35,358 nucleotides of DNA, from contig JALRGZ010000252.1 in NCBI GenBank assembly GCA_023253295.1, forward strand, positions 1 to 35,358, in the 5' to 3' direction. This stretch comes from Flavobacterium sp. Its GTDB lineage: Bacteria; Bacteroidota; Bacteroidia; Flavobacteriales; Flavobacteriaceae. The translations under genes and the position numbers were made by a program. A model generated the notes under the pieces. It saw only the letters and a program-made list of their open reading frames with translations, ran no database searches and was not told where the DNA came from. This document shows, in pieces, positions 31,463 to 34,756 of the stretch (position 1 is the first letter of the stretch; each line of letters starts with the position of its first letter).

Positions 31463-31835
31463 ATTTTAGTCCTAAAACAGTTTTACCTTATATTTTCCCG
31501 GAAGAAATGAAAATTATAGATGTGCTAATTCAATATACAGTTGAGACAAGAATATTCACAATGAAATGAATACTTAATCTAACTTTTAGCATATACTGTT
31601 GGTATAAAAATTACAAAAAAAAATAGTGAAGGAATTAAAATATTTACGACTATTACACATTTATTAAATCATCAAACACATACCATATTATCAATTTCCC
31701 TCATTTAAATATTTTATTTATCCTAAATTTAAAATAACAATCAATTGTTCTTTTTTATATATTTTGGGTGCAATATTATTTCATCGACAGAAAAGAATTT
31801 TCAAGTAATTCCTAAATAAAAAGAGTTGTCTACAC

Positions 31836-31853
31836 TATACCCGAAAGAGCATA
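31836..31853 (+). promoter_or_regulatory. HipB operator-like repeat 1
   Basis: TATACCCGAAAGAGCATA; half-site TATACC matches the perfect copy at 31917. Confidence 0.6.
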
Positions 31854-31875
31854 ATTAAATCCAAATTATTATTTT

Positions 31876-31893
31876 TATACCCGAAATAGCATT
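31876..31893 (+). promoter_or_regulatory. HipB operator-like repeat 2
   Basis: TATACCCGAAATAGCATT; 40 bp after repeat 1. Confidence 0.6.
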
Positions 31894-31916
31894 GTTTTGT
31901 TTTTTTTTATTATATT

Positions 31917-31934
31917 TATACCAGAAAAGGTATA
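31917..31934 (+). promoter_or_regulatory. HipB operator-like repeat 3 (perfect dyad)
   Basis: TATACC-AGAAAA-GGTATA, perfect inverted repeat 41 bp after repeat 2 and ending 3 bp before the hipB ATG. Confidence 0.68.
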
Positions 31935-31937
31935 ACC

Positions 31938-32141
31938 ATGGATTCATTACGATTATTTGTAAAACAAAAGCGCAAAGAATTAAAACTGACACAGGAAGAG
32001 TTAGCATCAAATGCTGGTGTAGGTCTGCGTTTTGTTCGTGATTTGGAACAAGGAAAAAAAACACTTCGTTTAGACAAAGTAAATGATGTTTTAGCATTAT
32101 TTGGAAAAGAAGTTGGTGTAATTGATAAAATCCATGAATAA
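31938..32141 (+). CDS. hipB: HipB-like XRE-family antitoxin/repressor
   Basis: 67-aa HTH protein VKQKRKELKLTQEELASNAGVGLRFVRDLEQGKKTLRLDKVNDVLALFGKEVGV. Confidence 0.87.
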   Translation: MDSLRLFVKQKRKELKLTQEELASNAGVGLRFVRDLEQGKKTLRLDKVNDVLALFGKEVGVIDKIHE

Positions 32142-32476
32142 TGGCACGTCAGGCAAAAATATATTTTCAGGATAAATTAGCAGGATATCTAGTCGAAGGA
32201 GATAATGGGTATTTATTTAATTATGACCCAGTATATCTTGAAAGTAACAATCCAAAACCCATTAGTTTAACGATACCAATTTCAAAACATATTTATCACA
32301 GTAAGGTGTTATTTCCATTTTTTGATGGTTTAATTCCTGAAGGCTGGTTGCTGAATATTGGCGAAAAACATTGGAAGCTAAATCCACGTGATCGATTTGA
32401 ACTATTACTTAATTTATGCAGAGACACTATAGGAGCGGTTTCTGTTTATCCAATGGAGGAGAAGAATCATGGCTAA
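32141..32476 (+). CDS. hipS: HipS-like protein (HipA N-subdomain 1 as a separate protein)
   Basis: 111 aa similar to the HipA N-terminal domain: AGYLVEGDNGYLFNYDPVYLESNNPKPISLTIPISKHIYHSKVLFPFFDGLIPEGWLLNI...DTIGAVSVYP; start overlaps the hipB stop (TAATG). Confidence 0.85.
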   Translation: MARQAKIYFQDKLAGYLVEGDNGYLFNYDPVYLESNNPKPISLTIPISKHIYHSKVLFPFFDGLIPEGWLLNIGEKHWKLNPRDRFELLLNLCRDTIGAVSVYPMEEKNHG

Positions 32477-33395
32477 TTGTTTGTTTTGCTATCAAGCCCT
32501 TGAAACAGGGGAATATCACACTAATTGTTCAAAGATTTTTTTTGGAACATCCCAAGTACCAATTCTTGAATTAGATAAAGAGGAGTTAAATAAATTAGCT
32601 CAAATTACTGTAAATGAACGATTGGCATTAACTGGTGTACAACCCAAAATATCATTAAGCTTAAACGGAGAAAAAGGAAATAAACGATTAACATTAGTTG
32701 GTTTATGGGGCGATTATATTCTGAAACCGCAGTCTCCTGATTTTTCTTTTATACCAGAAACAGAAGATCTAACAATGCATTTAGCAAAACTATTTAAAAT
32801 CGAAACCGCTGCACATGCTTTAATTAGAACTTCAACCGGCGAATTGGCATATATTACGAAACGTTTTGACCGTTTAAAAAAAAATAAAATTCACGTAGAA
32901 GATTTATGCCAACTATCTGAGTTATTGACGGAACAGAAATACAAAAGCTCCTACGAACGTGCAGGTAAAATTATCAGTCAATATGCAACCAATTCAGGTT
33001 TAGATGTAATCAAATATTTTAGATTAGTATTATTTTCTTTTTTAACAGGCAATAACGATATGCATTTGAAAAATTTCTCATTAATGCATACAGATAAAGG
33101 TATTTTGTTTTCACCGGCTTACGACCTTTTGAATGTAAACCTTATTTATCCCGAAGACAAAGAAGACCTTGCTTTAACTTTGGGAGGTCGTAAACGAAAA
33201 ATAAAGCACTCCGATTTTGACCGATTTGCTGAAAGTTTAGGAATTTCCAAGATTGTTCGTAATAATATCAATAAAGACTTTTTAAAACAGATTGACAAAG
33301 TCCCCGATTTTATAAACAGAAGTTTTTTACCAAAAGAATACAAAGAAGAATACATTAAAATTTTCAACCATAAAATAAAACAGATTGAATTGTAA
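32469..33395 (+). CDS. hipT: HipT-like serine/threonine kinase toxin (HipA C-terminal core)
   Basis: TGVQPKISLSLN loop, YILKPQSPDF, YITKRFDRL, FLTGNNDMHLKNFSL (catalytic loop), FSPAYDLLNV (metal-binding); 8-bp overlap with hipS. Confidence 0.87.
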   Translation: MANCLFCYQALETGEYHTNCSKIFFGTSQVPILELDKEELNKLAQITVNERLALTGVQPKISLSLNGEKGNKRLTLVGLWGDYILKPQSPDFSFIPETEDLTMHLAKLFKIETAAHALIRTSTGELAYITKRFDRLKKNKIHVEDLCQLSELLTEQKYKSSYERAGKIISQYATNSGLDVIKYFRLVLFSFLTGNNDMHLKNFSLMHTDKGILFSPAYDLLNVNLIYPEDKEDLALTLGGRKRKIKHSDFDRFAESLGISKIVRNNINKDFLKQIDKVPDFINRSFLPKEYKEEYIKIFNHKIKQIEL

Positions 33396-33420
33396 TTAAA
33401 TTTTTGTTTCTATATTTTTA

Positions 33421-34719
33421 CACTAGTGTCCACTTAAAATAAGTTGAAAACCAGCTGGTTAATATTATGTTCATTGACATTATTGTAATCTGATTTCATA
33501 AGTAATTCATTTATAGATGTTTTATCGAGTAATGATGCGGATAAAATTTGTAAAATTTCGTAAGTAGAACGATTGATTTTTAAATCTTTTGAGATTATAG
33601 AAACTAAACAGTAAGTTATAATTGCTACATTAATTTGGATCCGAACAGCATTTTCTGTTGTCCCCCAAAAGGTCTTAACTTTTAGGTGTTGTTTTATCCA
33701 TTTAAAGAACAATTCAACTTGCCATCTTTGTTTGTAAAGTAATGCGATATCCTCAGCGGATAATTCAAAATTATTTGTCAAAAAGACCAACGTCTTTTTA
33801 TTTTCACAATCGAAAAATTTCACTTTTCGCATCTTTTCTGGATAATCTTTCGAAGTATAAAAACCTTCTATTTTTCCAATTTGGTCATATTTAATCCCCG
33901 TTGTTTTGTCAACTTTTTGAGAATACATTCTTTTGAATTTTACATTAGATTTTGCTCTAACTACAAAGTAAGCATTAGCTTTTGTAATGCGAAAAAGTCG
34001 TTCATAATCAACATACGCTCGGTCAAAAATGTAATAGGCAAATGGCTCATAATCTATAACATCCATTGCGTTAACATCGTGCACATTTGCCTCTGTAATA
34101 TGGATAAATACAGGGATCTGTGTGTTAATATCAAAAAGAGTGTGCAACTTTATTCCAGCTTTGGTTTTCGGAAATGAGCCCAACAAAACACGCTCAAACA
34201 TAGGTCTATTGTTGAAGAGTCAAAGGCATAAATATTACCTTTAATTTCAAAAGTATCATTGCTGTTTTTATCTTGAGCAATTAATATTAAGTGATTAGCA
34301 AACTCCTCAAATATTTTAAAATTGCGATTTTCATTAGCCTTGGATAAATTGCTACGAGTTACGTTTTTGCCAAATCCTAAATGATATGATTTTGATTGAT
34401 GTGCTTCTATAACAATTATCAAATCTCTTAAACTTTCTCTAGCCGAAAGTTGACCAAAAATCATACATAATAATTGATTCCAACAAGTAAAATGTTTGAC
34501 CGATTTATTGCCTAAATATTTAGCTGCTAACCTATCAAAAACACGCTGTGGCAGAAATTCAACCAATTGAGAGAAAACATATTTACCCTGATTCATATTC
34601 GTAATGTTGAATTACGAACATAATAATCATTTCAAATCGTCACGCTCAAAAATGACTCTTAAAATACAGATTTACAATAATTTCAAAGAACTTATTTTAT
34701 TTTTTAGTGGACACTAGTG
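33421..34719 (-). mobile_element. IS4-family-like insertion sequence with terminal inverted repeats
   Basis: Left end CACTAGTGTCCACTTAAAATAAG, right end TTATTTTTTAGTGGACACTAGTG; outer 14 bp CACTAGTGTCCACT perfectly inverted; encloses both transposase ORFs. Exact tip is ambiguous because CACTAGTG is itself palindromic. Confidence 0.85.
33434..34596 (-). pseudogene. IS4-type transposase (DUF4372 N-terminus + DDE domain), split by a frameshift near 34165-34168
   Basis: ORF 34596-34150 (FSQLVEFLPQRVFDRLAAKYLGNKSVKHFTCWNQLLCMIFGQLSARESLRDL...YAFDSSTIDLCLSVFCWAHFRKP) continues in another frame as KTKAGIKLHTLFDINTQIPVFIHITEANVHDVNAMD...YKQRWQVELFFKWIKQHLKVKTFWG (ORF 34201-33434). One extra A in CGAAAACC restores FRKTKAGIKLHT. 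Confidence 0.85.
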
Positions 34720-34756
34720 CTGTTTTTTATTAAAAAAAATAACTTTTCATAAAATA

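Follow-up and report, generated by a model that had tools for sequence, protein, structure and literature searches.

The three operators of the Legionella hipBST array, each 18 bp long and evenly spaced, are bound by HipB in EMSA, and the gaps between them measure 53 bp (PMC10653801). HipB bound the asymmetric and the symmetric sites of this array to a similar extent, no difference in affinity between the sites was observed, and an intermediate occupancy was proposed and contrasted with cooperativity (PMC10653801). Cooperative binding has been described for the operators of Escherichia coli K-12 hipBA (PMC3920265). In the E. coli hipBST system HipB alone represses the hipBST promoter, but only when highly expressed, and hipBST or hipBT suffices at low expression (PMC10627512); the Legionella operator motifs are reported to be absent from the hipBST locus of E. 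coli O127 (PMC10653801). Related HipBST systems have been noted in the FCB superphylum (PMC10653801), and our search of the open-access literature found no description of HipBST operators from the Bacteroidota.

The locus analyzed here comes from Flavobacterium sp. (contig JALRGZ010000252.1, 35,358 nucleotides, of which the entire length is referred to as the window), and judged from its sequence the window carries an apparently intact hipB–hipS–hipT operon of the HipBST type on the plus strand. The first gene, hipB (31938–32141), encodes a helix-turn-helix (HTH) repressor of 67 aa that scores above the cut-off of TIGR03070; hipS (32141–32476) encodes a predicted antitoxin of 111 aa with a Couple_hipA domain (TIGR03071/PF13657), which equals HipA N-subdomain 1; and hipT (32469–33395) encodes a putative toxin of 308 aa, a Ser/Thr kinase with a HipA_C domain (PF07804). 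This is the gene order of HipBST, with the HTH protein first, HipS second and a short HipA_C protein third, encoded by three overlapping or adjacent genes: The hipB stop and the hipS start overlap at 32141, and hipS and hipT overlap at 32469–32476. The best solved relative of the window's HipT is HipT(Lp) of Legionella (8ezr, E 8e-54), with E. coli HipA (3tpd) at E 9.5e-4, placing it with the HipT rather than the HipA proteins. The translation of hipT retains GNNDMHLKN and SPAYDLLN, which we take to be motifs of the HipA type for catalysis and metal binding. An insertion sequence with the inverted ends CACTAGTGTCCACT and AGTGGACACTAGTG lies immediately 3' of hipT (33410–34720); its transposase is spread over two overlapping frames on the minus strand (33434–34201, DDE_Tnp_1, and 34150–34596), and is either frameshifted or programmed.

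Three copies of an 18-bp site with the pattern TATACC-N6-GGTATA precede hipB, all read on the plus strand. The distal site 1, TATACCCGAAAGAGCATA (31836–31853), matches this pattern in 10 of 12 positions, with a perfect left half and four of six bases in the right half; the middle site 2, TATACCCGAAATAGCATT (31876–31893), matches in 9 of 12, with a perfect left half and three of six bases in the right half; and the proximal site 3, TATACCAGAAAAGGTATA (31917–31934), is a perfect 6-bp dyad (12/12) and the only one of the three with both halves intact. The steps from start to start are 40 bp between sites 1 and 2 and 41 bp between sites 2 and 3, and 3 bp separate the end of site 3 from the hipB ATG at 31938. 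An earlier note on this DNA had described the three as repeats resembling HipB operators, and its sequences and start positions (31836, 31876, and 31917) proved exact, as did the spacing, the perfect third dyad and the short distance to the ATG. A dyad of 15 bp that looks like a truncated operator, TATACTGTTGGTATA (31590–31604), lies ∼247 bp upstream of site 1, or about six 41-bp steps, and probably reflects chance in AT-rich DNA.

To assess how often such an array arises by chance, the region 31700–31937 was shuffled 5,000 times with its dinucleotides preserved, counting as a site any sequence with at least 9 of 12 matches. Three or more sites occurred in 6 of the 5,000 shuffles, and three sites spaced at 39–42 bp occurred in none. 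The exact dyad TATACC-N6-GGTATA is found once in the 2.99-Mb genome assembly, at site 3, a count that is a lower bound given an assembly completeness of ∼75%. A match at 32750 inside hipT, with one mismatch to the loose pattern, was judged to be due to chance.

To follow the array through other genomes, we collected the DNA upstream of hipB in relatives from two genome collections and from plasmid records; the relatives with named records belong to the Flavobacteriaceae and other Bacteroidota. The main count comprises 105 distinct Bacteroidota hipBST loci encoding an arginine at HipB position 31 (Arg31). Three sites resembling TATACC-N6-GGTATA were found in 72 of these, four in 18, two in 14 and none in a single locus, so that at least two sites are present in 104 of the 105 loci and at least three in 90. 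The earlier note had named the absence of the repeats from homologous operons as the observation that would speak against it; the comparison did not refute it. Neighboring sites are separated by 40 bp in 116 and by 41 bp in 84 of 212 intervals (200/212), whereas shuffled control sequences yielded no interval of either length; a lag analysis that makes no use of the motif gave a single peak, also at 40–41 bp. Among 61 homologues with a well-called array, both the step from site 1 to site 2 and that from site 2 to site 3 are 40 or 41 bp in 56, and four-site arrays keep these steps too (e.g., L060, L073, and L104). Two loci illustrate the wider distribution of the module: A HipBST module with TATACC-type sites is encoded on the conjugative Runella plasmid pRUNSL02 (L119), indicating that module and operators travel together, and a record titled Candidatus Caenarcaniphilales bacterium (L090) contains a hipBST operon of the Bacteroidota type whose four sites are spaced 41/40/41 bp apart, which represents either horizontal transfer or a contamination of the assembly.

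Regular spacing in very AT-rich DNA might also stem from a 40-bp unit without regulatory role that was recently duplicated in tandem, or from chance matches. The DNA between the sites is however no more similar than shuffled sequence (36.8% compared with 37.3% identity), the array never appeared in the shuffles, and it is conserved across families of the Bacteroidota; chance and recent tandem duplication were both rejected on the shuffles and the comparison of the spacers, and we regard this explanation as extremely improbable. As the steps of 40 or 41 bp are kept while the sequence between the sites drifts, the spacing appears to be held by selection, with no trace of recent duplication.

The identity of the ligand is suggested by a covariation between repressor and operator. 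According to the HTH_3 alignment, the putative recognition helix of the window's HipB reads GVGL-R31-FVR. Cytosine occupies position 5 of the half-site (scored as present when found in 50% or more of the halves) in 98 of 100 tree rows with Arg31, and the two exceptions (L062 and L067) are register slips, in which mis-set hipB starts cut off the proximal site. In the rows without Arg31, cytosine is found at this position in 1 of 25, and the translation of that HipB reads His31. Four Asn31 loci (L051, L099, L105, and L109) have the half-site TAYATC, with the Asn-type locus L145 being less clear; Cys31 or Phe31 is mostly accompanied by TATAT and a variable base, and Thr31, in another subclade, by TATATG or TATATC. 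It should be noted that for some of the non-Arg loci the caller itself sought arrays at 39–42 bp, and their spacing is thus no independent observation. The closest comparison is provided by Pedobacter soli (L051, Asn31), which falls inside the window's clade in the HipT tree and has a HipB 83% identical to that of the window: Its array is TATATCC/GGATATA at 41/41, the change from Arg31 to Asn accompanying that from TATACC to TATATC with the spacing unchanged. On independent, well-supported branches, four of four informative pairs change in the expected direction (sign test p = 0.125), in a HipT tree that was built rapidly and has several forks without support.

Residue 31 thus tracks position 5, Arg being paired with C, whereas T mostly accompanies Asn, Cys, Phe and Thr, which makes HipB the likely ligand of the sites. 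A regulator other than HipB, such as a global Bacteroidota repressor using TATACC-N6-GGTATA, could in principle own the repeats; with the exact dyad occurring once in the assembly, adjoining hipB in the relatives, and with its half-site following HipB residue 31, such an owner is very improbable. Every comparative analysis thus agrees with the proposal of the earlier note that the sites are HipB operators: The array is conserved, the recognition helix covaries with it, and the equivalent in Legionella is proven. On a tentative note, it is possible, if somewhat doubtful, that the HipBST repressors of the Bacteroidota have switched their DNA specificity several times through residue 31 (Arg, Asn, Cys, Thr and others) while the geometry of 18-bp dyads at steps of 40–41 bp remained fixed, in which case the array would act as a scaffold on which HipB–HipS–HipT assembles along the DNA and the switches would insulate hip modules residing in the same cell.

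Scans for sigma-70 promoters and for terminators gave matches no more frequent than in shuffles, and for the promoter we therefore used the Bacteroidota consensus. In Bacteroidota, the housekeeping sigma factor has a −7 box with the consensus TAHHTTTG at −12 to −5 (PMC6847099), and TAnnTTTG has also been given as the Bacteroidota box (PMC9723704). A candidate box, TATATTTA, lies at 31911–31918 on the plus strand and shares its last two bases with the first two of site 3. In 54 of the 61 homologues, TAhhTTTR is matched by the octamer whose last two bases open site 3, compared with 0.93% of positions in the same regions. In 11 of the 61 relatives TGTACC replaces TATACC at site 3, creating a perfect TAnnTTTG box, as if one base were serving both promoter and operator. 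Transcription is predicted to start near 31923, inside site 3, which would leave a leader of ∼15 nt; relative to this predicted start, site 3 extends from −6 to +12, site 2 from −47 to −30, thereby covering the −33 promoter region, and site 1 from −87 to −70.

The earlier note had pointed out that site 3 covers the ribosome-binding region, which is probably beside the point here: Shine-Dalgarno sequences are absent from Bacteroidota (PMC6847099), and the elements that site 3 overlaps are the −7 box and the predicted start, making occlusion of the promoter, and not of a ribosome-binding site, the natural reading. An action of the sites in RNA, with a hairpin of site 3 in the hipB leader controlling translation, would fit the symmetry of this site and its distance of 3 bp from the start codon, yet the predicted start inside site 3 would leave its left half untranscribed, and the other two sites precede the promoter; we consider a role of this kind barely credible.

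Taken together, the three sites are very probably operators of the operon's own HipB, through which the promoter would be blocked by cooperative binding on one face of the DNA and the operon kept at a low level. Each 18-bp site would be occupied by a dimer of HipB, which probably carries HipT and HipS; the complex at site 3 would block the −7 box and the transcription start, that at site 2 the −33 region, and site 1 would contribute affinity. The step of 40–41 bp would place neighboring complexes on nearly one face of the DNA, allowing contact and cooperative binding. Expression of the operon would thereby remain low, with release once HipB, or HipB–HipT, falls. HipT (with HipS) probably strengthens repression, as suggested by the result that E. 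coli hipBST or hipBT suffices at low expression and by the supershift of HipB–DNA by HipT in Legionella (PMC10653801). We found no binding or expression data on the HipBST of this organism or of any other member of the Bacteroidota.

The near alignment on one face, which the earlier note had described as close to four helical turns, is borne out by the strict spacing, with 40 and 41 bp corresponding to 3.8 and 3.9 turns (at 10.5 bp per turn), short of exactly four. HipB could also bind each site independently, without contacts between dimers, the spacing then reflecting the geometry of the promoter only and the additional sites raising the local concentration of the repressor. The Legionella data are in line with this, as HipB bound isolated 50-bp fragments to a comparable extent whichever single operator they contained and the stepwise pattern of the shifts suggested intermediate occupancy (PMC10653801), and so is the position of sites 2 and 3, which flank the core promoter. 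However, the interval between the two distal sites, which precedes the core promoter, is equally strict at 40/41, four-site arrays included, and we consider independent binding unlikely, though it is the alternative to be taken most seriously. That the step from site 1 to site 2 is as fixed as the step from site 2 to site 3, in spite of lying upstream of the core promoter, points to contacts between the bound proteins, which would allow cooperative binding.

The earlier note had also read graded or cooperative binding from the degeneracy in the right halves of the first two sites, a suggestion that fared less well. The degeneracy is private to this genome, and relatives often have full dyads (site 1 in 28 and site 2 in 25 of 61); graded affinity may be a local feature of this genome. 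The two right halves (31848–31853 and 31888–31893) carry the same two substitutions, AGCAT for GGTAT, found at no other locus examined: the scored sites include a single AGCATA and a single AGCATT, compared with 228 occurrences of GGTATA. Parallel drift, conversion between the sites or local adaptation may lie behind these shared substitutions.

Among the known systems, the E. coli K-12 hipBA operon resembles the window in its dimeric HTH repressor of the HipB family, in 18-bp dyads starting with TAT and in multiple sites over the promoter, and differs in having four sites at 28/39/28 bp, a one-piece HipA toxin and a HipB that is itself the antitoxin. The window's sites read TATACC-N6-GGTATA rather than the E. 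coli consensus TATCC-N8-GGATA. The earlier note had regarded the half-site cores as similar and the spacing within the sites as different; the 18-bp footprint is the same, only the CC lies one base further out in E. coli, and the overall geometry is alike. The E. coli O127 hipBST operon shares the gene order hipB–hipS–hipT and the role of HipB as repressor (PMC10627512).

The arrangement is most readily compared with O1–O3 of Legionella hipBST (PMC10653801), which likewise combine a tripartite operon with three evenly spaced 18-bp sites with inverted 6-bp half-sites; in both, the proximal site is symmetric and overlaps the promoter, and the two distal sites are asymmetric. The half-sites and the step differ: At the hipBST promoter of Legionella adelaidensis we measured TTACTG-N6-CAGTAA sites at 72 and 71 bp, in contrast to TATACC/GGTATA at 40–41 bp in the window, and site 3 ends 3 bp before the ATG as opposed to 24 nt in Legionella. 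Six loci of the window's genus (L020–L025) encode a Legionella-like helix (GVGKT or GIGKT) and have TTACTG-N6-CAGTAA operators. In the two of these that were measured (L022 and L025) the sites are 70–72 bp apart, and the length of the step thus differs between HipBST lineages, being 70–72 bp for the TTACTG type and 40–41 bp for that of the window.

The array described here extends the proven operator arrangement of Legionella to the Bacteroidota and yields a testable specificity code, linking HipB residue 31 to position 5 of the half-site; its strict spacing rule predicts contacts between neighboring HipBST complexes on the DNA. This bears on the repression and release of tripartite hip modules, and on possible cross-talk where several of them share a cell. 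Legionella already provides a published example of a HipBST operon with three operators at even intervals, two of which are asymmetric (PMC10653801); the TATACC half-site, the step of 40–41 bp, the merging of operator and −7 box and the code of residue 31 appear to be new.
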